Part shown: positions 52,290 to 64,000 of the stretch, in pieces
How the letters are laid out: every line of letters starts with the position of its first letter
How positions within the stretch are numbered: the stretch's first letter is position 1
NCBI RefSeq assembly: GCF_000974985.2
Contig: NZ_LAVA02000090.1
Coordinates: forward strand, 62,001-126,000
DNA: 64,000 nt
Direction of reading: 5' to 3'
DNA from: Streptomyces mangrovisoli
Lineage (GTDB): Bacteria > Actinomycetota > Actinomycetes > Streptomycetales > Streptomycetaceae
The notes under the pieces: generated by a model
Told to the model about the DNA's origin: nothing
Seen by the model: only the letters and a program-made list of their open reading frames with translations
The model's database searches: none
Made by a program: the position numbers and the translations under genes

Positions 52290-53522
52290 TCAGCGCCCGG
52301 CGATCTCTCGGGCGACGGGGTGGCAGTGGCGCACGGCGATGCTGTCGGGGTTGGGCACCGCCACGGACATGCCCGTGTCGGTGAGGCCGCCCGACGCGGG
52401 GTCGACGCCGAACAGGTTGACGGTGCTGCTCGTCTCGTTCGCCACGAACAGCCAACGGCCGCTCGCGTGCAGCGTCATGCTCCACGGCGTGACTCCCCCG
52501 CAGGGGACGCGCTGGATCTCGGTGAGCAGGCCGGTCGGCCGGACGGCCGAGAAGACGACCAGGGCGTTGTCGCCGCGGTTGGACACGTAGACGTACCGGC
52601 CGTCGCGGCTGACGGCGAGTTCGGCGGCGCTCGTGGAGCCGGTGTGTTCCGGCGCGTTCGTCATCAGGAGCTGGCGCTCCGTCAGTGTCCCTGTGTGCGC
52701 GTCCCAGTCGAGGGCCCGCAGGTCGGCGGTGAGTTCGCTCAGGAGGTAGACCGTGTGTCCGTCCGGGTGGAAGACCAGGCGTCTGGGGCCCGAACCCGGT
52801 GTGGTGGCGAAGGAGCCGGGACCGTCCGCGCCGGTCGACAACCGGTGGGTCGGCGCGTCGTAGTCGTAGACGAAGACCCGGTCCGCGCCGAAGTCCGCGA
52901 CGAGGGCGAATCCGCGGCTCGGGTCGACGACCACGTGGTGGGGGTGCGGTGCCGCCTGGCGTGGGTTGGGGCCGGAGCCGGTGTCCTGCACGCTGGAGAC
53001 CACCTCCCCGAGCGCGCCGTCCGCGGTGAGCGAGACGGTCGCCGCCGCGCCCGCCGCGAAGTCGGCGACCAGGAGCGCCCCGCCGTCCGCGGTGGGCGCG
53101 ATGTACGACAGTCCCCCGCTGCCGGTCGGAACGGGCTCCGTCTCGATCTGGCCGGTCTGCAGCAAGGCGCCTGTGGTGTCGTCGATGCCGAAGGAGCGTA
53201 CGAATCCGCCCTGTTCGGCGCCGCCGACGTACAGGACCGGGCGGTGCGGGTGCACGGTGACCCAGCTGGAGCTGGTCTGCGCGACCGCTCCGAGCGGCGT
53301 CATGGTGCCGCTCTCGGGGTCGAACCGCACCGCGTGCACCTGGTTCTGGTTCCAGGTGCCGATGTACAGAAGGTCCTCGCACGGGCCGGGAGCCGCTGCG
53401 GCGGGGCTCGCGGACAACAGCGGTACGGTCGCGGCGGCCGATACGGCGGTGAGGGCGCCGAGCACGGCTCTTCGGGAGGGTCCGCGGCCGGCGTACGGCG
53501 GCGGGGGTGGGGTTTCGTTCAT
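52290..53522 (-). CDS. Tat-exported seven-bladed beta-propeller, lactonase (YbhE/Pgl) family
   Basis: This 410-residue protein has a twin-arginine signal (PSRRAVLGALTAVSA, cleaved near AAA) and a repeated propeller pattern (for example HPHRPVLYVGG, DPSRGFALVADFGADRV, HPDGHTVYLLSE, SRDGRYVYVSNRGDNA and HASGRWLFVANE), which is the lactonase family shared by 6-phosphogluconolactonase and 3-carboxymuconate cyclase. Secretion argues against the pentose pathway, and a role in a lactone or aromatic pathway fits the cluster. It lies 29 bases after the permease gene. Confidence 0.85.
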   Translation of the reverse strand: MNETPPPPPYAGRGPSRRAVLGALTAVSAAATVPLLSASPAAAAPGPCEDLLYIGTWNQNQVHAVRFDPESGTMTPLGAVAQTSSSWVTVHPHRPVLYVGGAEQGGFVRSFGIDDTTGALLQTGQIETEPVPTGSGGLSYIAPTADGGALLVADFAAGAAATVSLTADGALGEVVSSVQDTGSGPNPRQAAPHPHHVVVDPSRGFALVADFGADRVFVYDYDAPTHRLSTGADGPGSFATTPGSGPRRLVFHPDGHTVYLLSELTADLRALDWDAHTGTLTERQLLMTNAPEHTGSTSAAELAVSRDGRYVYVSNRGDNALVVFSAVRPTGLLTEIQRVPCGGVTPWSMTLHASGRWLFVANETSSTVNLFGVDPASGGLTDTGMSVAVPNPDSIAVRHCHPVAREIAGR

Positions 53523-53551
53523 CAGGATCGTCCCGTTCCTGTGCGGAGGTA

Positions 53552-54424
53552 TCAGTGCTTGGGCTGCGGTCGGCGGCGGGCCGCCAGGCCGAGGCGCTTG
53601 AGGGCGTACGAGTCGAGGGCGGTCAGCACGCCGTTGAGGGCCAGGGTGATCGCGACCAGGACGATCAGACCGGCGAACTCGGCGGCCGCGTCCAGGTTCT
53701 GGGCCGCGGTGAACAGCTCGTGTCCGACCCCCTCGGACGAGGCGATGAACTCGCCGCCGATCACGCCGAGGATCGCCAGCGGGCCCCCGGTCTTGAGTGC
53801 GGCGAAGAAGGGCGCGGCGAGGGTGGGCAGGGTGACGTAGCCGAGGACGTGGTGCCTGCGCCCGCCCATCACCTGGACGACTTCGACGAGTTCGCGCTCC
53901 CTGAGCCTGAGCCCGAGGTAGATGTTGTAGAAGACGACGAACGCGACGCCGGTCATGGCGATGGTGATCTTCGACCACTGGCCGATGCCGAAGAACAGCA
54001 GGAACAGCGGGGCGAGCGCGATCTTCGGTATGCCGTTGACGGCGGCGACCAGCGGTTCGAGGACCCTTCCCAGGATCGGGAAGGAGCCGAGGACCAGGCC
54101 CATCACCGTGCCGGCCAGGACGCCGAGGCCGAATCCGGCGAGAACCTCGACGGTGGTGACCTTGATGTCGGTCCAGCCGCTCGCCGAGCCGAGCATGTCG
54201 GTGAGCGCGTGGTAGACGTCGGTGGGCTTGCTGACCGCGTACTCGGGCACGACGGGCCCGCTCATCGCCTGCCACAGCACGAGCGCGACGAGGATCACCA
54301 GGATGCGCAGCGCGATGATCGAGCCGGTGCTCTCCAGCCGGGCGCGCGCCCTCCCGCGGGCGGGGGCCGCGCTGCCGGGGCCGGGGTCGGGCCTGGTCAC
54401 AGCCTTGTCGGCGACGGTTGCCAT
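53552..54424 (-). CDS. ABC transporter permease, SsuC/TauC type
   Basis: This 290-residue protein has about six helices after a Pro/Ala-rich N-terminus and the EAA-type loop (ELVEVVQVMGGRRHHVLGYVTLPTL). This is the family for sulfonate, nitrate, taurine and pyrimidine-precursor import. The ATG at 54424 follows GGGAG. It is next to its binding protein, but no ATP-binding subunit is encoded in the window. Confidence 0.92.
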   Translation of the reverse strand: MATVADKAVTRPDPGPGSAAPARGRARARLESTGSIIALRILVILVALVLWQAMSGPVVPEYAVSKPTDVYHALTDMLGSASGWTDIKVTTVEVLAGFGLGVLAGTVMGLVLGSFPILGRVLEPLVAAVNGIPKIALAPLFLLFFGIGQWSKITIAMTGVAFVVFYNIYLGLRLRERELVEVVQVMGGRRHHVLGYVTLPTLAAPFFAALKTGGPLAILGVIGGEFIASSEGVGHELFTAAQNLDAAAEFAGLIVLVAITLALNGVLTALDSYALKRLGLAARRRPQPKH

Positions 54425-54456
54425 GGTCTGCTCCCTTCCACGTGGGTGAGGCCGTG

Positions 54457-55494
54457 TCACGGCAGGTAGGTGTTGGTCCAGTTGTCGGCGGAGATGCTCG
54501 CGTCGGGCACCGCGCCGATCCCGTCCTTGACGAAGGCGAGGGTCTTCTTCCATCCCTCGTCGTCCTGCTGGGCGCTGACCGGCCACTGCACCTGGCCGAC
54601 GGAGGCGCTCAGCACGTCGTCGGGGGTGCCCGGCAGGGTCGTGCGTGCCGCGGCGAGGATCTTGGCGTCGCCGGAGTCGTGGGAGCTGAGGTAGGCCGTC
54701 GCCTGCTGTACCGCGGTGGCGAATCCCTTCACCACCTTCGCGTCGGACTTCACGTAGCTCTTCTTCGCCACGACGACCTGCCCGTATCCGGCTTCGGCGT
54801 AGGACCACTCGGGGACCTTGGCCGGGTCGGCCACCACGACGCCGTCGCCCTGGTGCTGGACCTGGAGCGGGATCGGCTCGGAGGTGATGAACCAGTCGAC
54901 CTCGCCCTTGGTGAGGGCGGCCTTGTCGGCGGCGGGGCTGGGCAGGGTGACCCACTTCACCTTGGCCGGGTCGATGTCGTGGGCCTTGAGGAAGATGCCC
55001 GCCTCGGCCTTGGTGTTGGCGGAGCTGACACCGGCCGTCGAGCTCGCAAGGGCCTGGGCCACCTGGTCCGCGGGGGTGTCCGCGGTCAGCTTGTGCTTCT
55101 TGGCGAACTCGTCGCTGACGACCACGCCGAGCGGGTTGCCGCCGCCGTTCGTGGCGACCGAGATCTCCGGGAGCTTCTTGGAGAGCGCGGCGAGGAACCC
55201 GGTCGGGCTGGAGTTGAGGAACTGCACCGAGCCGGACTCCAGGGCGGAGGTGCCGGTGGCGGCGGTCAGCGTCACGTACTTGATCTTTATCTTCTGCTTC
55301 GCGAAGTAGCCGTTCGCATCCGCCAGGCGGATGGACAGGTCGAAGACGTTGCCGCTGACGCCCACCGAGACGGTGGTCGTGCCGTCGGAGGCGACCGAGG
55401 TCGACCCGTTGTCGCCGCAGGCGCTCAACAGGGCGGCGCCGAGCAGCGCCGCGGTGGCGGGGGCGAGACGGCGGGCGGTGGTACGGCTTCTCAT
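54457..55494 (-). CDS. ABC transporter substrate-binding lipoprotein, NMT1/SsuA type
   Basis: This 345-residue protein has a lipoprotein signal with lipobox LSAC (Cys near residue 26). The mature part is a NMT1/SsuA-like two-lobe domain (NVFDLSIRLADANGYFAKQKI, then FLNSSPTGFLAAL). These bind small acids such as sulfonates, or aromatic and pyrimidine precursors. AAGGAG precedes the ATG. It lies between a carboxylesterase and its permease, so the ligand may be an ester or acid degraded by the cluster. Confidence 0.92.
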   Translation of the reverse strand: MRSRTTARRLAPATAALLGAALLSACGDNGSTSVASDGTTTVSVGVSGNVFDLSIRLADANGYFAKQKIKIKYVTLTAATGTSALESGSVQFLNSSPTGFLAALSKKLPEISVATNGGGNPLGVVVSDEFAKKHKLTADTPADQVAQALASSTAGVSSANTKAEAGIFLKAHDIDPAKVKWVTLPSPAADKAALTKGEVDWFITSEPIPLQVQHQGDGVVVADPAKVPEWSYAEAGYGQVVVAKKSYVKSDAKVVKGFATAVQQATAYLSSHDSGDAKILAAARTTLPGTPDDVLSASVGQVQWPVSAQQDDEGWKKTLAFVKDGIGAVPDASISADNWTNTYLP

Positions 55495-55516
55495 GGGAAC
55501 TCCTTTGTTCACCTGG

Positions 55517-57106
55517 TCACCAGGCCTGTTGGGTGCTGAAGAAGCGGATCCAGAAATCGGTGCGTACGGGGTCCGCGATGCGGATCGGCCCGAACCGCGC
55601 GCCGAGTTCCATGACGGAGCCGGCGCCGGGGGCGAAGGCGGGCCAGCGGGGCAGGCCCTGGCCGCCCGGGTCGCCGGTGGCGGCGAAGTTGATCCAGTAG
55701 GAGGAGAGGACGCGGGCGATGTCGTGGTCCCGTTCGGTCCACGAGGCCCTGCCGTCGGCGGGGTTGCCGAAGACGTAGTCGATCTCGGAGCCGTGCGAGG
55801 CCCGTCGGGGGCCGCCGCCCGGCACCTGGGTGCGGTGGGTCCAGAAGTAGGTGTGCAGGCTGCCGGCGGTGTGGCGGCCCCAGTCCGTGCCCCACAGGTA
55901 CGTCGACAGACGGGAGTTGTCGCGGGCGGCCCGGCTGCCGGCGTCGGCAGCCTCGTCGTCCGTGGTGGCCGGGTACAGCCGCAGGAACTCCTCGGCCAGG
56001 TCCCCGAACTTGCGCCGGGCCGCGGTGACATGCTGCTCCAGCGTCACGTGGACCGGCGGCGATCCCGGGCGGACCGTGCGCCGCCCGGCCCGCAGGGCCG
56101 CGACCATCGTCGGAGGCACGGCGCCGCTCTCGTCGAGGTTGTTCCCGGTGAGGTAGTCGACGTCGTTCTGTGTGCCCTTGGCGTACGTCTCGTCGTAGCC
56201 GGCGGGGATCACCCAGCCGTCGACGACGGGTCGGAAGAGGGGAGGGCCGGCCGGACCGCCGGTCTCGACGGTCGTGTCGACGGGGTGGTGTCCGTCGACC
56301 AGCTTCCTCCAGTGCAGGGCGCGCAGTGCGCGCGTGGTGGGCGCGCCGTGCGCCCGTGCGTAGCGTTCCCCCGCCGCCTCGGCGTCGGCCGGCAGCCGGT
56401 AGGAGGTGGAGAGGTAGCGCAGTTCGGGGTCTCGCGCGTAGCGGGCGTGGCTCTGCGCGATGGCCCGGTGGAACAGCCCCCCGGCGAGCGGGGAGAGGGC
56501 GAGGAAGTTGACCATGCCCGCTCCCGCGGACTGGCCGGCGACGGTGACCCGGTGGGGGTCCCCGCCGAAGCGCGCGATGTTGTCGCGGACCCAGCGCAGG
56601 GCGGCGACGCAGTCGAGCAGCCCGTAGTTGCCGGACGAGCCGTGTCCGGACTCCTCGCTCAGCTCGGTCGTGGCGAGGAAACCGAAGGCGCCCAGACGGT
56701 AGTTGAACGTGACGACGACCAGGCCGCGCCGGGCCAGGTCCTCACCGTCGTAGCGGGGATGTGCTCCCGTGCCCTCGCGGAAGCCGCCGCCGTAGATCCA
56801 CACCAGGACCGGGCGGTGTTCCGCGGTGGAGGCGGCGCCCGTCCAGATGTTCAGGCTCAGGCAGTCCTCGCTCATGGGCACGTCGACCCCGGTCGCCGCC
56901 GCGTCGGTCGGCGACTGCGGGCACATCGGCCCGAAACGGTCGGCCCGGCGTACGCCCTCCCACCGCGGCGGTGGCTGCGGCGGCCGCCATCTCAGCTCGC
57001 CGACCGGCGGGGCCGCGTAGGGGATGCCGCGGAACACGGTGACGGACCGGTCCCGGCAGGGCACTCCCTCGACGGGGCCCGCCTCGGTGTGCACGGCATG
57101 GGGCAT
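55517..57106 (-). CDS. Type-B carboxylesterase
   Basis: This 529-residue alpha/beta-hydrolase has the type-B signatures EDCLSLNIW and GGDPHRVTVAGQSAGAG (S193), with the oxyanion motif YGGGF. The acid (near LDESGA) and the histidine (ASHGSEIDYVF) are also present. Members hydrolyse p-nitrobenzyl, phthalate or other carboxylic esters. No signal peptide is seen, so its substrate must enter the cell. AAAGGA lies six bases before the ATG. It sits between the GntR regulator and the binding protein. Confidence 0.93.
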   Translation of the reverse strand: MPHAVHTEAGPVEGVPCRDRSVTVFRGIPYAAPPVGELRWRPPQPPPRWEGVRRADRFGPMCPQSPTDAAATGVDVPMSEDCLSLNIWTGAASTAEHRPVLVWIYGGGFREGTGAHPRYDGEDLARRGLVVVTFNYRLGAFGFLATTELSEESGHGSSGNYGLLDCVAALRWVRDNIARFGGDPHRVTVAGQSAGAGMVNFLALSPLAGGLFHRAIAQSHARYARDPELRYLSTSYRLPADAEAAGERYARAHGAPTTRALRALHWRKLVDGHHPVDTTVETGGPAGPPLFRPVVDGWVIPAGYDETYAKGTQNDVDYLTGNNLDESGAVPPTMVAALRAGRRTVRPGSPPVHVTLEQHVTAARRKFGDLAEEFLRLYPATTDDEAADAGSRAARDNSRLSTYLWGTDWGRHTAGSLHTYFWTHRTQVPGGGPRRASHGSEIDYVFGNPADGRASWTERDHDIARVLSSYWINFAATGDPGGQGLPRWPAFAPGAGSVMELGARFGPIRIADPVRTDFWIRFFSTQQAW

Positions 57107-57132
57107 GTCGTCCTTTCCGCCCCGGCCGTGCG

Positions 57133-57858
57133 TCAGCTGACGGGCGGCTCCGGGGACTTGTCCAGCAGCAGCGCCCTGCGGGCGGAGCCGACGTGATGGC
57201 GCATCGCCGCGACGGCGGCGTCGGGGTTGCGCGTGAGGATGGCGAGGAAGATCGCCTGGTGCTCCTCCAGCGACCCGGATCGCGGGTGCTGTGCGGAGAG
57301 GTTGCGGTACTGCCGCATCACGAGCGGGTAGAGCAGGGTGTCGTAGGCGCGGGCCAGCGTCGCCTGGTGCGCCGCCTGTTTCACCTGCTGGTGGAAGCTG
57401 CGGTTGCCGCGCGAGTAGGAGGCCTGGTCGCCCCGCGCCTTCGCCTCCTCCATGTCCTGGAGGGTGCGGCGCATGCCCTCGATCTCGTCGGGTGTGGCCC
57501 GCTCCGCCGCCTTGCCGGCGAGCGCCGACTCCAGCGTCTCGCGGGCCTCCAGGATGTCCGCGGCCTCCTCGACGGAGAAGCTGCGGGTGCGCACGCCGCG
57601 GTTGACCTCGCTGGTGACGTAGCCCTCCTGCGTCAGGCGCGCCAGCGCGGAGCGCATGGTGCTGCGCGACACGTCGAACATCCGCGTCAGGTCGGCCTCG
57701 GTCAGCCGGGTGCCGGGCGGGATGCTCCCCGACATCAGCAGGGAGCGCAGCCCCTCGTAGGCGTGGCTCTGTCTGGTACCGGACGCTCTCGCCTCGGAGG
57801 GTGCACCGTCGCCGTCGTAGTCCACCGTGACCGCCTTTTCTGTTCGTGGGGTTGGCAT
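57133..57858 (-). CDS. GntR family regulator, FadR/FCD type
   Basis: This protein of about 241 residues has an N-terminal GntR winged helix (SHAYEGLRSLLMSGSIPPGTRLTEADLTRMFDVSRSTMRSALARLTQEGYV) and a C-terminal helical FCD ligand domain (ILEARETLESALAGKAAERAT, then FHQQVKQAAHQ). FCD domains bind small carboxylic acids through a metal. A GTG at 57825 with AAGGCGG upstream is an alternative start. It lies inside the cluster and is the obvious candidate regulator. Confidence 0.88.
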   Translation of the reverse strand: MPTPRTEKAVTVDYDGDGAPSEARASGTRQSHAYEGLRSLLMSGSIPPGTRLTEADLTRMFDVSRSTMRSALARLTQEGYVTSEVNRGVRTRSFSVEEAADILEARETLESALAGKAAERATPDEIEGMRRTLQDMEEAKARGDQASYSRGNRSFHQQVKQAAHQATLARAYDTLLYPLVMRQYRNLSAQHPRSGSLEEHQAIFLAILTRNPDAAVAAMRHHVGSARRALLLDKSPEPPVS

Positions 57859-57899
57859 CCGAGGCGGGAACCCTAACCGACTCCATGGCAGGTCAGCCT

Positions 57900-58751
57900 C
57901 TACCTGGTCAGAGAGGGGTAGAGGCGCCGCGCGGTTCCGGCGAAGATCTCCGCCCGGACCGCCTCGGGCAGGGGGGCCAGCACCGTGCGCGCCAGGTCCA
58001 CGAGTTCGGGCAGGGTCTGCTCGGCGGCGGGGAGGTTGGATCCCCAGGCGATGCGCCCGGCGCCGAACGCGTCGACCACCGGGGTGAGGAACTCGACCGC
58101 CTCCTCCCCCGCGGCGTGCAGCGGTTCGAGGTTGCGGTGGGTGAGCTTGAGGTACAGGTTCGGGTGGGCGGCCAGCTCGGCGACCTCCTTGCCGGACCGG
58201 GCGGGCGAGCCGGCGATGTCGGGGTATCCGATGTGGTCCAGGAGCACCCGAACGCCGGGGAAGCGCTCCAGCACGTCGGCGAGTTGCCGGTTGGCCGGAC
58301 CCAGGCGCATCTGGAGGCAGACGGTGACGCCGAGTTCGCCGGCCGCGCTCCAGAAGTCGTACGACTCCGGCGCGGCGAACCACTCGCCCTGGACGGGGAC
58401 GGTGCTGCCGCTGGTGAACAGCCGTACGCCCGAAAGGCCCTGCCCGGTGACGGCGGTGGCCAGCCGGGCCGGGGCGTCGGGGGCCAGCGGGTCGAAGGTG
58501 CCGACCGCGATGAACCGGTCCGGGCGGGCGGCGCTCGCGTCCAGGACATAGGCGTTGTGGTAGCCGTAGGCGGTCGTGGCCTGGACGAGGACGGACCGCC
58601 CGATGCCCGCGAGGTCCATCTGTACGGCCATGTCCTCGGCCGTGACCGGGCGGGTCGTGGCCCAGGCGGAGGCCTTCCCGCCGATGGGCGACCAGGGGTA
58701 GCGGTCCTGGTCGGCGGCGATGATGTGGCAGTGGGTGTCGATGATGTCCAC
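57900..58751 (-). CDS. Amidohydrolase family 2 (TIM-barrel) protein
   Basis: This 283-residue protein has the metal motif DTHCHI at the N-terminus, a central HIGYPD and a late WGSNLPAAE, matching amidohydrolase-2 members. These include 2-pyrone-4,6-dicarboxylate lactonase, ACMSD-like decarboxylases and gamma-resorcylate decarboxylase. The GTG at 58751 follows AGGAG by eight bases. The enzyme could hydrolyse a lactone or decarboxylate an aromatic acid in the pathway. The exact reaction cannot be told from sequence. Confidence 0.88.
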   Translation of the reverse strand: MDIIDTHCHIIAADQDRYPWSPIGGKASAWATTRPVTAEDMAVQMDLAGIGRSVLVQATTAYGYHNAYVLDASAARPDRFIAVGTFDPLAPDAPARLATAVTGQGLSGVRLFTSGSTVPVQGEWFAAPESYDFWSAAGELGVTVCLQMRLGPANRQLADVLERFPGVRVLLDHIGYPDIAGSPARSGKEVAELAAHPNLYLKLTHRNLEPLHAAGEEAVEFLTPVVDAFGAGRIAWGSNLPAAEQTLPELVDLARTVLAPLPEAVRAEIFAGTARRLYPSLTR

Positions 58752-58765
58752 GGTGGGGGCTCCTG

Positions 58766-59749
58766 TCAGGCGTCGGGGTAGTCGCCGTCGGCGAACAGCG
58801 CGTGCGGGTCGGCCGGGGAGTCCGCGTCCAGCAGTCCCTGGCCGCGTGCGTAGCGCACGAGGGCGTGGAGGCTGGGCTCGTTGGCGGCCACGCCGTAGGG
58901 CACGGGGTCGCCGTCGACGAGGGCGGCCTGGCGGGCGAACCGGGGCAGCCGGGTCCAGCCCGGGTCGCCGGCCGTCTCGCGCCGCTTGGCCTCGGCGCAC
59001 GCGGTGTACAGCACGGTCGGCAGGGCGGGGTCGCGGGCGACGAGGTCGGCGCGCAGGGCGATCAGGGAGTGCAGCGGGTAGACGCCGGTGCGCAGGTAGT
59101 GGTCGGCGGCGAGGATCTCGGCGTCCGGGAACAGCGGGTAGGGAGTGTCGGCGTCGCCCGGCCGCGGCTCGGCGGTCGCGGTCCAGCCGCTGCGCGGGGC
59201 GCCGGCCCGGCCGGTGCCCGCGTTGCCGGTGAACGCGGCGTCGATCTCGCCGGCCCGCAGCAGTTCGCCCAGTGAGCGGCCGTCGGTGACGCGCTCCACG
59301 TTGGCGGGGACCCGGCCCTCGACGTGGTCGTCGTCGTCCACCACCCAGGTGATCTTGTCGACGTCGACGCCGTACTCCTCGGTGAGCACGCCGCGCGCCC
59401 ACACGCCGGTACTGACCGAGTAGGCGCGCACGCCCACGCGGCGGCCCTCCAGGTCGCGCGGCACGCGGATGCCGGAGCGGGCGCCGCACTGGATGTCCCC
59501 GTGGTGGAAGCGGCGGTTGAGGAAGACGGGGATCGCGGTGAGCGGGACCCCGGCCTGGCGGGCCATCAGGTAGGAGACCGGCGCCAGTTCGCACACGTCG
59601 AACTCGAGGTCGCGGATCATCCGCCGGTAGGCGCCGATGACCGGCCTGACCTGGATCTCCTCGATCGCGTAGGTGGCCGTGTCGGTCACCGGGGCGGGTA
59701 GGTCACGCGCGTGCGCGTACTCCCCGAGGACGGTGGAGAGCTTCTCCAT
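58766..59749 (-). CDS. 4,5-dihydroxyphthalate decarboxylase-family protein, copy 1
   Basis: This 327-residue cytoplasmic protein has a periplasmic-binding-protein-like fold used by the Pht5-type decarboxylase family. Landmarks are FDVCELAPVSYLMARQAGVP, LNRRFHHGDI and GVRAYSVSTGVWARGVLTEEYGVDVDKITWV. The known family member decarboxylates 4,5-dihydroxyphthalate to protocatechuate; others are uncharacterised. It is the first of three paralogues in the cluster. Only about a third of residues are shared with the others, so each likely has a separate role. Confidence 0.82.
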   Translation of the reverse strand: MEKLSTVLGEYAHARDLPAPVTDTATYAIEEIQVRPVIGAYRRMIRDLEFDVCELAPVSYLMARQAGVPLTAIPVFLNRRFHHGDIQCGARSGIRVPRDLEGRRVGVRAYSVSTGVWARGVLTEEYGVDVDKITWVVDDDDHVEGRVPANVERVTDGRSLGELLRAGEIDAAFTGNAGTGRAGAPRSGWTATAEPRPGDADTPYPLFPDAEILAADHYLRTGVYPLHSLIALRADLVARDPALPTVLYTACAEAKRRETAGDPGWTRLPRFARQAALVDGDPVPYGVAANEPSLHALVRYARGQGLLDADSPADPHALFADGDYPDA

Positions 59750-59843
59750 TGCCTGCCTTTCGTGTTGTGGTGTTCGGTGGGGGCCGTCCTGGGGTGCGGG
59801 ACGGCCTCCGGGTGACGGGTACTGCTGTCGGGCTACGGGGCGG

Positions 59844-60716
59844 TCAGCCGCCCAGGCGGGACGCCGGGACGCCCAGGGCCGCGCAGGTGCGGTCGACGAT
59901 CTCCTCGAAGTCCACGGCGCGCGGGATGACCTCCTGCTCCAGGGCGTAGGCGGATGCCCTGGTGAAGGGGGCGCGCAGGCCCGCGAAGCCGGCCGGGTCG
60001 ATCGCGGCGGTGGGTGCCGCGGCCGCCGCCGTACGCAGCGCGTCGAAGGCGGCGAGGATCGCGGGCGCGTGCTCGCGGGCCGCCGTCTCGCGCACGCCGA
60101 GGACGTGGTTGACGGGGGTGAAGCCGGTCCTTGCCGCCCAGGCGGCGGCCACCTCGCGGGCGTCGGCGATCGCGGTGCGGATACGGTCGTCGCCAGGCAG
60201 CTCGTTGCCCATGATCCCGAAGTCGATCCGTCCGTCGAGGAAGTCGGCGGGCAGCTTGGCGCCTTGGGGTGCCCGGGTGACCCAGGAGGGGTCGTCGAAG
60301 CCGTCGACGTGGGCGCCCTCATAGGTCCGCCAGTCGACCTTGCGCAGGTCGACGCCGTACTGCTCGGTGAGGAAGCCGCGCACCCACACGCCGGTGGTCT
60401 GGCTCCAGGCGCGTACGCCGACGCTGCGGCCCTCGATGTCGTCGACCGTGAGCCGGCCCAGGGTGACGAGGGTGTGGTGCTGGTCGCGGCCGAGGGCGGT
60501 GATCGGCAGCAGGAGCACCTCGCGGCCCTGCGCGATCGCCTGCAGCAGGGTGACGATGGCCAGTTCGCACAGGTCGGCGCCAGTGCCGTCGACGAAGCCG
60601 CGGGATGCCCTGTGGACCGGCTTGATGTCCAGCCGCTCGTACGGCGTCCCGGTCTCCGCCACGGCCGCCGCGGCCGCCTCGGCCAGGTCGTCGCGGCCCA
60701 GAACCACCTTCATCAT
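59844..60716 (-). CDS. 4,5-dihydroxyphthalate decarboxylase-family protein, copy 2
   Basis: This 290-residue paralogue is the shortest of the three. The landmarks are DLCELAIVTLLQAIAQGREVLLLP, DQHHTLVTL and GVRAWSQTTGVWVRGFLTEQYGVDLRKVDW. It starts at an ATG overlapping the DUF3500 stop (ATGA); a second ATG follows at 60713. The three genes share the central VGVRxxxxTTGVWxRGxLxExYGV block (with variation), which probably forms part of the ligand site. Confidence 0.8.
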   Translation of the reverse strand: MMKVVLGRDDLAEAAAAAVAETGTPYERLDIKPVHRASRGFVDGTGADLCELAIVTLLQAIAQGREVLLLPITALGRDQHHTLVTLGRLTVDDIEGRSVGVRAWSQTTGVWVRGFLTEQYGVDLRKVDWRTYEGAHVDGFDDPSWVTRAPQGAKLPADFLDGRIDFGIMGNELPGDDRIRTAIADAREVAAAWAARTGFTPVNHVLGVRETAAREHAPAILAAFDALRTAAAAAPTAAIDPAGFAGLRAPFTRASAYALEQEVIPRAVDFEEIVDRTCAALGVPASRLGG

Positions 60717-61885
60717 TTGCTCCTCGGTCCGTCGTGGGGGTGGCGTGCGTGGTGCTGGCGCAGCAGGTCGGCGCCGTAGTCGCCGCCGTTGGGGGTGCGC
60801 ACGATGGTGTGGATGTGCCGTCGGGTGGGGTGGTCGTTGGCGTACATCACGCCGGCCATGTGCTCGAACTCGACGAGGATCACCGGACTGTGCAGGCGGT
60901 AGTAGAAGACGCCGTCCGGGTCGCCGACCCACCCGAAGTAGGTGTCGCCCTCGTGGGCCAGGACCTCGTCCGTGCGGACCTTGGCGTGGCCGGGGCCCGC
61001 CCGGTCGGTGTAGAGGGCGATCAGGTCGAGGGCGGCGTGCCGCTGGTCACCGATGAGTTCGCTCAGGGGGAGGCCGGCGAAGTCCAGTTCCCAGTTGTCC
61101 CGGAAGGCGCCCACGAACAGCTCGTCCGGCAATTCGTCGGCGATCGTGGCCCGTTGCCGCTGGGGCACCGACAGTCCCGCGAACACCTCCTGTCCCGCGG
61201 CCTCTTCGGCACGGAAGGCGGTCGTTCCGGCGAACTTCCCGCCCTCCGCGAGAACGGGTTCTGCGCCCAGGAAGGTCGGGGTAAGGACCATGTGGTCCTC
61301 GACCAGGGCGCAGTTGACGTTCACGTGGTGGCCGTCGAGCTGCCAGCCGAAGGGGCCCTCGCCGAGCGGGTCGCCGTAGACGCTGAACCAGTACAGCCAC
61401 TCGTTGAGCGCGTCGGTCTCGCCGCGGATCTCCCCGATGGTCAGGTTGAGCCGCATCAGGTCGACGACCTGCCGGAATCCGGCCCCGCTGAGGGACGCCC
61501 GGACCAGGTCGAGGGCCAACTGCCTTTTGACGTCGTCGAGTTCTTCCAGGCACAGGCCGTGGCGGAGGAAGTAGCGGGCACCGTTGTTCCAGTGGCGCCA
61601 GGTCACGTCCCGCATGGGGAAGCGCGCGTCGTGCAGTTCGTTCGGGGTGAGCGCCCTCAGGTAGGCCGCGGCCGCCTCGCGGATGCGGGTGGTGTCGACG
61701 CCGGTGCCGGTCAGCGGGTAGAGGCCGGGGACCGGTCCGTCGGAGGTGACCACTCCGCGCAGCGGCTCGTCGGCCGCCTCACGGCGCCAGTCGACCTTGG
61801 CGAGCAGTTCGGGTGTCCAGAGCTCCGGTTCGCGGGTGGGGGCCGAGGGGCGTATCCGCAACCGCGCGTCGTCCGTGCCGTCCAT
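60713..61885 (-). CDS. DUF3500 family protein
   Basis: This 390-residue protein matches the DUF3500 pattern: an N-terminal helix-rich region (LRALTPNELHDARFPMRD), GWQLDGHHVNVNCALV followed by TPTFLGAEP, and a C-terminal FGWVGDPDGVFYYRLHSPVILVEFEH with HIHTIVRTPNGGDYG. Conserved His residues suggest a metal-dependent enzyme, but the biochemical role of the family is unknown. It is coupled to the copy-2 decarboxylase-like gene, which suggests a linked step. Confidence 0.85.
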   Translation of the reverse strand: MDGTDDARLRIRPSAPTREPELWTPELLAKVDWRREAADEPLRGVVTSDGPVPGLYPLTGTGVDTTRIREAAAAYLRALTPNELHDARFPMRDVTWRHWNNGARYFLRHGLCLEELDDVKRQLALDLVRASLSGAGFRQVVDLMRLNLTIGEIRGETDALNEWLYWFSVYGDPLGEGPFGWQLDGHHVNVNCALVEDHMVLTPTFLGAEPVLAEGGKFAGTTAFRAEEAAGQEVFAGLSVPQRQRATIADELPDELFVGAFRDNWELDFAGLPLSELIGDQRHAALDLIALYTDRAGPGHAKVRTDEVLAHEGDTYFGWVGDPDGVFYYRLHSPVILVEFEHMAGVMYANDHPTRRHIHTIVRTPNGGDYGADLLRQHHARHPHDGPRSK

Positions 61886-61926
61886 CGCTGCCGGCTCCTT
61901 TCTCGTGGGATGGGTCGCCGGTCCGC

Positions 61927-62925
61927 TCACGCGTCGAGGAACGCCACGTCCTTGTGGATGCGGTCCAGGTCGACGGGGGTGCGGACGAGTCCTTGTTCGA
62001 GGGCGTAGCGGGCCGCGATCTCCAGGCAGCGGGCGAGGGAGTCGCTGCAGCCGGCGGTGACCGCCCGGCCCGCCGGGGTGGCGGGGTCCCGCTCGCCGAC
62101 TGTCTCGTCGATGCCCCGGGCGAGCGCCCGGAACAGGGCGGTGACCGCGTCGGGGCGGGAGCGCAGGACGTCGTCGCGGACGACCAGCAGATGGTTCGCG
62201 GGCACCGTGCCGTGCCGCTCGACCCATGCGGCGGCCGCTTCCTCCGCGTCCTCGATCACGGGCACCAGGGGGACGCCCTGGACACCGATGGCGCGCGGCC
62301 CGAGCACCGCCGCGTCCACGTCGGCGGCCCGCAGCAGGGCGGCGACGCCGCCGGCCGAGGACCGCCGGACGTTCGGCGGGTTCACGTAGGTGTCGACGTG
62401 CGCGTCCTCGGTCGTGACCCAGGTGACGTCCGACGCCTCGACGCCGTAGTCCTCGCGCAGGATGCCGCGCACCCACAGACCGGTGGTCTGGCCGTACGAC
62501 CGCACCCCGATCCGGCGCCCGGCGAGCCGCCGCACGTCCAGCTCGGGCCCGTCGGGCAGCCGGGTCAGCGAGTGGTGGTGCGTGGCGCCGATCAGCACGG
62601 CCGGGAGCAGGGTGAGGGGGACGCCCGCGTCACGTGCCATCAGGTAGGTGGCGACGGGCATCTCGCAGACGTCGAACTCCAGCGCGCGCACCATCCGTGG
62701 GAACGCGGTGTGCAGCGGGGAGGCGGACAGGAAGCGGCAGTCGGCGCCCGCCACGGGGATCGTGCCGTCTCTCAGGACGCGGGTGTGGGGGTAGTCGCCG
62801 AGCAGGACGTCGAGCGTCTCGCCGGTCCGGACGTGCGGCTCTTCGTGGCCTTGGACGAGTGGCGTGTCGCGGTCCGCCGCAGGGGTGTTCACGGTCGCGG
62901 TCTCCTCGCTCCTGGCTCTGCTCAT
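61927..62925 (-). CDS. 4,5-dihydroxyphthalate decarboxylase-family protein, copy 3
   Basis: This 332-residue paralogue carries FDVCEMPVATYLMARDAGVPLT, GATHHHSLTRLP and GVRSYGQTTGLWVRGILREDYGVEASDVTWV, the same blocks as copies 1 and 2. The N-terminal 35 residues are an extra acidic leader. Its ATG at 62925 overlaps the stop of the TPP enzyme (ATGA). Confidence 0.82.
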   Translation of the reverse strand: MSRARSEETATVNTPAADRDTPLVQGHEEPHVRTGETLDVLLGDYPHTRVLRDGTIPVAGADCRFLSASPLHTAFPRMVRALEFDVCEMPVATYLMARDAGVPLTLLPAVLIGATHHHSLTRLPDGPELDVRRLAGRRIGVRSYGQTTGLWVRGILREDYGVEASDVTWVTTEDAHVDTYVNPPNVRRSSAGGVAALLRAADVDAAVLGPRAIGVQGVPLVPVIEDAEEAAAAWVERHGTVPANHLLVVRDDVLRSRPDAVTALFRALARGIDETVGERDPATPAGRAVTAGCSDSLARCLEIAARYALEQGLVRTPVDLDRIHKDVAFLDA

Positions 62926-64000
62926 ACGTCCTCGCCGTACCAGAGGCGCCGGTAGGGCGGGCTGAGCACCGTGCGGGTGATGCGGACGTCGATGACGGTG
63001 GGGCGGGGTTCGCGGACGTACTCGGCGAGTGCGGAACGCAGTTGGTCCGTGGTGCGCACGGTGGCGCCCGATCCGCCCAGGGCCACGGCCACGGCGCCGA
63101 GTTCCGGTGTCGGGATGACGGCGAGTTCGGGGTCGAGGTTCTTGGCCGCCGACTTGTGGTACTCGGCGCCGAGGCCCTCGTCGTTCATGACGACGACCAG
63201 CAGGGGCAGCCCGTAGCGGCAGGCGGTCTCGAACTCCGGAAGGTGCATGAGGAAGCTGGCGTCGCCCTCGACCACGAAGGAGGGCCGGCCGCCGTCCGCG
63301 ACGATCTTCCCGATGGTCAGCAGCGGAGCCTGGCCGATGGCGCCGAACATCCCGTAGTTGGAGACGATCTCGCGGGAGCGCTGGAACAGCATGGTCCCGA
63401 AGTCCGTCTGGTGTCCGCTGCCGAGCACCAGGTCGATCTCGCCCGGGAGTTGCTCGTCGAGCACCGTGATCGCCTCGCGCGGGTCGATCAGTCCCGGCTC
63501 GCGGACGAGGTCGGCCGGATCGACGAGCGGTGCGGCCAGCCGGCCGCGGACCCCGGCGGTGTGGAAGCCCTCGATCCGTACGGAGCGGCTCGCGAGTTCC
63601 CGCTCCAGCGCCGCCAGCGCGGTCACCGCGTCGGAGCGGACGTAGACGTCGGCGGCGGCGCCGTTGCCCATGATCAAGTGCTCGGCGGAGTCGATCTGCA
63701 CGTACGTGGCTTCGGGGAAGAGGTAACCGGCCTCGGTGGTGTAGTGGTTGAGGCTGGCGCCGACCGCGATCACGCAGTCGGCCTCCTGGAGCAGTTCCAT
63801 CGCCACCCGGTTACCGAACAGCCCGGAGATGCCCACGTGGTGCTCGGTCCGCTCGCGCAGCCAGTTCTTCGCCTGGAGTGTGGTGGCGATCAGGGCGCCC
63901 GTACGCTCCTGAAGCCGCAGCACACCCTCGCCCGCGTCGGCCTGCCGGGCGCCGCGCCCCACGATGATCACGACACGCTTGCTCGCCTGCACCACGTCGG
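62922..64000 (-). CDS. TPP-dependent enzyme (acetolactate synthase/benzoylformate decarboxylase superfamily), partial
   Basis: The gene runs off the right edge, so only the middle and C-terminal domains (about 360 codons) are seen. The middle domain has VVIIVGRGARQADAGEGVL; the C-terminal TPP domain has GMFGAIGQAPLLTIGKIV, EGDASFLMHLPEFETACRYG and VVVMNDEGLGAEYH, which is the GDx...N diphosphate-magnesium motif. These enzymes decarboxylate 2-oxo acids or join them to aldehydes. The N-terminal PYR domain with the catalytic glutamate is outside the window. Gene order puts it at or near the start of the cluster's message. Confidence 0.88.
   Translation of the reverse strand, partial: DVVQASKRVVIIVGRGARQADAGEGVLRLQERTGALIATTLQAKNWLRERTEHHVGISGLFGNRVAMELLQEADCVIAVGASLNHYTTEAGYLFPEATYVQIDSAEHLIMGNGAAADVYVRSDAVTALAALERELASRSVRIEGFHTAGVRGRLAAPLVDPADLVREPGLIDPREAITVLDEQLPGEIDLVLGSGHQTDFGTMLFQRSREIVSNYGMFGAIGQAPLLTIGKIVADGGRPSFVVEGDASFLMHLPEFETACRYGLPLLVVVMNDEGLGAEYHKSAAKNLDPELAVIPTPELGAVAVALGGSGATVRTTDQLRSALAEYVREPRPTVIDVRITRTVLSPPYRRLWYGEDV

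Follow-up and report, generated by a model that had tools for sequence, protein, structure and literature searches.

The stretch of DNA analysed here, 64,000 nt of the 9.17-Mb genome of Streptomyces mangrovisoli (contig NZ_LAVA02000090.1; local GC content ∼71%) and hereafter called the window, carries at its right end an uncharacterised catabolic cluster encoding a DUF3500 protein and three proteins related to the dihydroxyphthalate decarboxylase Pht5/OphC (9jp7), which we call PhtA, PhtB, and PhtC. A preliminary description of the window had followed the cluster as far as the window edge and had considered a phthalate-ester-like substrate. By reading the genes to the right of this edge from the genome, with the window numbering continued, we found that a LigJ-type hydratase, an HpaI aldolase, a CoxG/SRPBCC protein, and an ATP-binding cassette (ABC) ATPase follow on the same strand. 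Fifteen minus-strand genes make up a single operon that extends from 52290 to ∼68120 and is transcribed from right to left; these genes and two neighbouring features are as follows.

52290–53465, minus strand: last gene, β-propeller lactonase (PF10282; Pfam, 276 bits) with a twin-arginine translocation (Tat) signal, N-terminal SRRAVLGALTAVSAAATVPLLSASPAAAA
53552–54424, minus strand: ABC permease (BPD_transp_1, SsuC/TauC type), assigned by Pfam and by its conserved adjacency to the solute-binding protein gene
54457–55494, minus strand: SsuA/NMT1-type lipoprotein (Pfam NMT1; lipobox LLSAC), the transporter's true solute-binding protein (SBP)
55517–57094, minus strand: type-B carboxylesterase (PF00135; Pfam, 360 bits), an optional member
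57133–57825, minus strand: GntR-FCD regulator (Pfam FCD, 100 bits)
57900–58751, minus strand: amidohydrolase (Amidohydro_2; Pfam, 137 bits), distant from LigI
58766–59749, minus strand: PhtC, Pht5-like, predicted cytoplasmic enzyme of the SBP fold (sequence match to 9jp7, 1.7e-29)
59844–60716, minus strand: PhtB, Pht5-like, predicted cytoplasmic enzyme of the SBP fold (AlphaFold2 model, best match 9jp7)
60713–61885, minus strand: DUF3500 protein (PF12006; 272.9 bits against a Pfam gathering cut-off of 27.2), candidate ring-opener
61927–62925, minus strand: PhtA, Pht5-like, predicted cytoplasmic enzyme of the SBP fold (sequence match to 9jp7, 4.5e-22)
62922–64580, minus strand: thiamine pyrophosphate (TPP)-dependent enzyme (Pfam TPP N, M, and C; glutamate motif HEGSG), cut by the window edge at 64000
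64577–65656, minus strand: LigJ-type 4-oxalomesaconate hydratase (match to 6dwv), outside the window
65839–66696, minus strand: HpaI-family class II aldolase (HpaI family match), outside the window
66693–67274, minus strand: CoxG-like (CoxG/SRPBCC) protein, outside the window
67320–68120, minus strand: ABC ATPase, first gene of the operon, outside the window
68289–68299: predicted operator, an exact TTGTYNRACAA site, outside the window
68555–68812, minus strand: TolB-like remnant, the C-terminal fragment of a secreted propeller protein, outside the window

All of the genes named in the preliminary description were present, but the three paralogues that it saw in a row are not contiguous, since the DUF3500 gene separates PhtA from PhtB. 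Its advice to look beyond the right edge for an ABC ATPase proved sound: with the ATPase located, the permease and the lipoprotein SBP form part of a complete SsuABC/TauABC-type importer. The intergenic gaps range from -4 to 182 bp, with four overlaps of 4 bp, and these tight junctions, together with the conserved gene order described below, indicate that the grouping of the genes exceeds chance. The flanking genes, as named by inspection, are seemingly unrelated, both on the left (a cold-shock protein and others) and on the right (an NB-ARC/TPR-like protein, a multicopper oxidase, and dTDP-sugar genes). The TolB-like remnant (L008:18556–18813) comprises 87 residues of a 75% identical C-terminus with the stop codon kept; an intact TolB-like gene adjoins many of the sister clusters, and the copy in the present strain has decayed.

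The strongest functional clue in the operon, the LigJ hydratase, sits just past the window edge. This protein aligns along its whole length with the crystallised 4-oxalomesaconate hydratase 6dwv (425 bits over residues 16–356), keeps the motifs DCHGH, HGGGAVPYHWGR, and SEM-GAVRG, and is the sole LigJ found in the source genome. The product of LigJ is 4-carboxy-4-hydroxy-2-oxoadipate, from which an aldolase then yields pyruvate and oxaloacetate. The aldolase of the operon belongs to the HpaI family, with a chemistry suited to a 4-hydroxy-2-oxo acid, and would cleave 4-carboxy-4-hydroxy-2-oxoadipate here. Together, LigJ and the aldolase point to an endpoint of 4-oxalomesaconate, followed by pyruvate and oxaloacetate, rather than to a phthalate route, which bears out the earlier remark that the pathway was likely something else. 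The amidohydrolase is presumed to be a lactone/pyrone hydrolase or a decarboxylase. We considered it as a true LigI and rejected this assignment: the LigI superfamily is common to both, but the amidohydrolase scored 43 bits against LigI structures, and BLAST did not match it to the canonical-looking LigI encoded at another Streptomyces locus (L163). That locus (L163:5833–11065) holds a canonical-looking LigI-LigK(RraA)-LigJ-PrpF(LigU-like) set and an MFS transporter; its genome also carries one of the split DUF3500 systems described below. Furthermore, small clusters that combine a Pht5-like protein with a LigJ-like amidohydrolase, a zinc alcohol dehydrogenase, and an RraA/LigK-type aldolase recur (L162:7736–13150, L165:8971–14057, and L166:8971–14051), suggesting that Pht5-like proteins commonly feed an oxalomesaconate route.

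No recognised ring-cleavage enzyme is encoded among the 15 genes of the operon. Two LigB-family (PF02900) genes occur elsewhere in the source genome, by inspection one YgiD-like and the other, in a homoprotocatechuate-like cluster, HpaD-like; by this character, they would not supply oxalomesaconate. Our comparisons covered 150 genomes from the same family, 84,980 species genomes, and 72,556 plasmids, and they included four betaproteobacterial plasmid clusters (Diaphorobacter HDW4B, Acidovorax DW039, Burkholderia multivorans, and Cupriavidus campinensis) that share much of the operon, namely LigJ (55–60% identical), HpaI (50–53%), the amidohydrolase (40–44%, and 38–44% across proteobacterial clusters), PhtC (42–44%), and the secreted lactonase (39–42%). 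One PhtA/B-like protein also occurs in these clusters, three of them encode a TPP enzyme, and their secreted TolB-like propeller protein shows 52–60% identity to the actinobacterial ones; their transporters differ. All four contain a LigB (PF02900; mutually at least ∼75% identical) and no DUF3500, whereas the actinobacterial clusters contain DUF3500 and in no case LigB. Moreover, this LigB (78% or more) and the TolB-like protein had an identical distribution over the plasmids, both occurring in the same 7 records and in no others. Either-or presence within a shared gene set is a classic mark of non-homologous replacement, and this mutual exclusion makes DUF3500 the best candidate for the ring-opening enzyme. 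The plasmid of Acidovorax sp. DW039, a duckweed-associated strain, additionally carries a subtype B tannase (L172:2250–3758) ∼8 kb from its LigB-type cluster; none of the other cluster loci compared has a tannase, and as a clue to the substrate the enzyme is only a hint.

We then turned to the DUF3500 protein itself. Across 53 DUF3500 sequences, GHH (185–187), D263, E339, HxH (357 and 359), and R363 are invariant, and the GHH...E...HxH pattern is consistent with a metal site. A structure model (predicted local distance difference test [pLDDT] score, 91.8) matched 9x86 (ApmL/Amc20) with a Z score of 21.5 over 250 residues. For the other chains that Foldseek had pre-ranked, Z scores did not exceed 3.9, an absence of further fold matches that is no proof of a new fold. 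ApmL shares family and fold with the operon protein and keeps GHH, E, and HxH, but it has a biosynthetic role and lacks the D263-N264 pair that is invariant in the operon branch. Relatives of DUF3500 are widespread (at least 572 confirmed, in many phyla, in the scan of 84,980 genomes). In the open literature, where DUF3500 is mentioned in three papers only, we found no established reaction for it, no matching pathway under the topics of amipurimycin and ellagate/tannin, and nothing relevant under 'Amc20'. A fungal DUF3500 protein, AN10530 of Aspergillus nidulans, has been proposed as the dioxygenase of a gallate pathway that passes through 1,2,3,5-tetrahydroxybenzene made by PhyA, although a review calls the dioxygenase putative (PMC12388069). 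Aspergillus niger can still grow on gallate when the full set of 17 recognised ring-cleavage genes has been deleted (PMC10512348). The bacterial operon resembles the fungal route in placing DUF3500 as the proposed ring-opener of a polyhydroxylated benzene, but no PhyA-like hydroxylase was seen in it. Some DUF3500 genes, in addition, lie in operons that resemble meta-cleavage operons, which we counted in favour of ring opening: a Thioclava plasmid carries a DUF3500-FAH-HpaH-HpaI operon (L044:7911–11701) with hpaD adjoining on the other strand, and DUF3500 genes in Paraburkholderia, Streptomyces chartreusis, and Rhodococcus have Rieske, FAH, or aldolase neighbours. Some actinobacterial DUF3500 proteins (L028 and L029) have N termini that resemble export signals, and part of the family may act extracellularly.

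The operon is accessory, with a DUF3500 orthologue in 6 of the 150 family genomes, the source genome included. Five of the 150 showed the same gene order at ∼55–80% protein identity, and the genome-neighbourhood comparison proposed in the preliminary description extended this order to ∼18 other actinobacterial clusters among the matches listed, with further carriers (likewise among the matches listed from the species genomes) in Streptomyces, Amycolatopsis, Nonomuraea, Actinomadura, Planomonospora, Actinophytocola, Nocardia, and Actinospica. Lactonase homologues (52–71% identity) lie inside or adjoin many of these clusters, and the carboxylesterase gene is found in only some of them. Nonomuraea sp. 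NEAU-A123 has two cluster copies on separate scaffolds (L059 and L068). An orthologue of the TPP enzyme was present in all six DUF3500-bearing family genomes and in 1 of the 144 others (Fisher p ∼5e-10, uncorrected for phylogeny). One family genome (G130) has the TPP/lower half but neither DUF3500 nor the importer permease; here, the importer and DUF3500 are either absent jointly or were left unassembled. Four genomes carry a split system with both halves retained. The minimal cluster (L055) reads ATPase-DUF3500-GntR-SBP-permease-lactonase, two others read ATPase-PhtA-DUF3500-GntR-esterase-SBP-permease (L061) and ATPase-PhtA-DUF3500-GntR-esterase (L062), and the fourth (L051) has a related arrangement; PhtA thus stays beside DUF3500 in two of the four (L061 and L062). 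In all four, an adjacent LigJ-TPP pair is located elsewhere in the genome, which in L051 is a divergent operon on the same contig. That co-occurrence outlasts the splitting of the operon indicates a linkage beyond chance, and the retention of DUF3500 with the importer fits an early step in the pathway. As read from these splits, LigJ, HpaI, the TPP enzyme, PhtC, and the amidohydrolase comprise the lower part of the pathway.

A shared operator links these genes further. Upstream of the first gene in every operon lies a TTGTNNNACAA palindrome, mostly of the form TTGTYNRACAA, with CTTGTCGGACAATC as its best form. Such sites numbered 55 in 28 of 28 upstream regions (450 bp each), against a mean of 0.08 expected from dinucleotide-preserving shuffles; with one duplicated species and some overlapping loci in the set, the independent n is slightly lower. 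The set includes the split halves, those led by CoxG too, and the sharing of one operator by intact operons and split halves supports co-regulation. The preliminary description had assumed co-regulation and had named its absence as a refutation; the common operator supports the assumption. In the source operon, an exact operator (68289–68299) lies 169 bp before the ATPase start, and the candidate GntR target sequence is TTGTCGGACAA; the GntR-FCD regulator is presumed to be the protein that binds TTGTYNRACAA. The 64-kb window contains no exact operator, and the whole genome contains five, the four others being in or near unrelated genes. We rejected further regulon members in the genome, as a reversed control pattern was commoner (12 versus 5), and the longer operator pattern WTTGTYNRACAAW had no match, its flanks not being A/T on both sides.

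The three Pht5-like proteins share the fold and family of Pht5/OphC. An AlphaFold2 model of PhtB (pLDDT, 95) had the enzyme 9jp7 as its top structural match (Z score, 27.6; root-mean-square deviation, 2.5; 275 residues; ∼20% sequence identity), well above the best SBP, SsuA, with a Z score of 18.4. We consider it barely credible that PhtA, PhtB, and PhtC are solute-binding proteins of transporters, an outcome that the preliminary description had named as fatal to its proposal: the periplasmic-binding-protein fold is indeed held in common, and homologues are frequently annotated as SBPs in databases, but on inspection none of the three showed a signal peptide or a lipobox (N termini MSRARSEETATV..., MMKVVLGRDD..., and MEKLSTVLGE...), whereas the true SBP of the operon has a lipobox. 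They are cytoplasmic Pht5-fold enzymes that probably act as decarboxylases or lyases on ring-fission products or precursors. PhtA, PhtB, and PhtC form three separate clades (support, 100/100), and the PhtC clade includes proteobacterial members (100/100). Since these clades are separate, the proteins can be parted by operon splitting, and some clusters (L050, L056, and L065) lack PhtA at the position where it normally lies, an obligate three-protein complex is unlikely. A second module recurs near some clusters (L156:12988–19000, L157:438–6659, L158:3061–9012, L160:957–6336, and L065:3974–4846); in it, a Pht5-like protein that forms a clade by itself (A2) accompanies another amidohydrolase (35–38% identical to the first) and an ABC importer of a different kind.

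The same family likeness, in sequence and in fold, would favour the phthalate or phthalate-ester pathway of the preliminary description, in which the Pht5 paralogues decarboxylate successively, and the carboxylesterase and the aromatic-acid-type ABC importer would suit it. We nevertheless consider this pathway highly improbable. A phthalate dioxygenase, a dihydrodiol dehydrogenase, and a protocatechuate dioxygenase are missing from the 15 operon genes and the immediate flanks, so that the absence of a ring hydroxylase stood after the right flank had been read. LigJ, moreover, stands where the enzymes of 3-oxoadipate metabolism would be expected. At the cleft motif, all three proteins have (V/I)GVR(A/S)(Y/W)(S/G)(Q/V)(T/S)TG (in short, VGVR(A/S)(Y/W)S-TTG) instead of GLPEYQLTANVW in 9jp7, an altered VGVR..TTG loop that would be catalytic. 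The phthalate reading of the operon is thus not supported.

The best reading of the operon is a variant of an oxalomesaconate-type aromatic pathway with DUF3500 in place of the ring-opener. That this jointly regulated operon imports and fully degrades an aromatic acid, with DUF3500 in the ring-opening slot and an oxalomesaconate end, is a proposal to which we give even chances. In such a pathway, (i) the secreted lactonase and the esterase, and in relatives the TolB-like propeller protein too, would free the acid outside or just inside the cell; (ii) the ABC system would take up the released acid; (iii) DUF3500, as a metal-dependent oxygenase, would cleave the ring, taking the position that LigB occupies in betaproteobacteria; (iv) the Pht5-like proteins, together with the amidohydrolase and the TPP enzyme, would produce 4-oxalomesaconate from the precursor or ring-fission product by decarboxylation, opening, or trimming; (v) LigJ would hydrate this to 4-carboxy-4-hydroxy-2-oxoadipate; and (vi) HpaI would convert the latter to pyruvate and oxaloacetate. 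Our guess for the substrate is a polyhydroxylated, carboxylated aromatic acid, with a gallate- or tannin-derived acid as the first choice on account of the Acidovorax tannase, the fungal link to gallate, and the oxalomesaconate endpoint. Somewhat less likely than the pathway as a whole is the further possibility that DUF3500 proteins are a new, structurally distinct family of metal-dependent ring-cleaving dioxygenases (outside the LigB, vicinal-oxygen-chelate, cupin, and intradiol types) that has replaced LigB in a bacterial pathway otherwise held in common and supplies the missing gallate ring-opener of Aspergillus.

Several observations weigh against this proposal. Among the Foldseek-ranked chains, the DUF3500 model matched no known dioxygenase (best unrelated Z score, 3.9), and the only solved DUF3500 protein, 9x86, is titled a dehydratase. 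Around ∼37 distant DUF3500 genes (∼43% identical, from many phyla), counts of neighbouring Pfam families revealed no aromatic theme, which leaves a family-wide tie to aromatics unsupported. Neither the canonical oxalomesaconate tautomerase (LigU/GalD) nor the canonical aldolase (LigK/GalC) is encoded in the operon, and individual roles for the Pht5-like proteins, the TPP enzyme, and the amidohydrolase are not assigned. The exclusivity of LigB and DUF3500 is based on few independent events, and the two sets of clusters also differ in phylum, in transporter, and in TPP subfamily (23% identity). Finally, neither DUF3500 nor LigB adjoins a paralogous cluster (L158), although its genome has DUF3500 elsewhere, and G130 carries the lower half with no DUF3500 found.

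The dehydratase title of 9x86, deposited as ApmL of amipurimycin biosynthesis, and the lack of aromatic neighbourhoods around the distant genes would also suit another role, in which DUF3500 is a metal-dependent hydro-lyase and the substrate a non-aromatic or partly reduced cyclic acid (for instance, a polyhydroxy cyclic, quinate-like one) that is dehydrated before it enters the oxalomesaconate/HpaI end; the SBP-fold family likewise includes MqnA/MqnD-type enzymes (2czl and 6o9a among the structural matches of PhtB). Yet the betaproteobacterial counterparts put a LigB dioxygenase in the place of DUF3500, ApmL is without residues invariant in the operon branch, and no other oxalomesaconate-yielding ring-cleaver was found in the operon or among the genes found in the genome, and we regard a hydro-lyase as unlikely. 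Less probable still is the import of a ready-made pyrone or lactone (such as 2-pyrone-4,6-dicarboxylate or a related lactone acid) that the amidohydrolase and the lactonase would convert directly to oxalomesaconate, with no ring cleavage in the cell and DUF3500 in an accessory role. Two lactonase-type proteins in the operon, counting the LigI-superfamily amidohydrolase, and the LigJ and aldolase downstream would accommodate it, but the amidohydrolase is far from LigI by both comparisons above, the counterpart clusters hold LigB, and the pairing of DUF3500 with the importer persists even in the minimal cluster, suggesting that its role is early and essential.

Among known systems, the protocatechuate 4,5-cleavage/gallate pathway (LigAB or DesB/GalA, LigI, LigU/GalD, LigJ/GalB, and LigK/GalC) has the LigJ-type hydratase in common with the operon, as well as, by inference for the operon, an aldolase that gives pyruvate and oxaloacetate. 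The operon differs from it in being without LigAB/GalA, LigU/GalD, and LigK, with an HpaI-type aldolase instead, and in adding DUF3500, the TPP enzyme, and the Pht5-like proteins. In summary, DUF3500 is widespread, and a compact bacterial operon that surrounds it with enzymes of known chemistry makes its function directly approachable by experiment, with the Thioclava operon as a second good system. The operon also provides a testable context for the cytoplasmic Pht5-like proteins of the SBP fold, a large group that is usually misannotated, and it bears on the open question of the gallate ring-opener of A. niger (PMC10512348).

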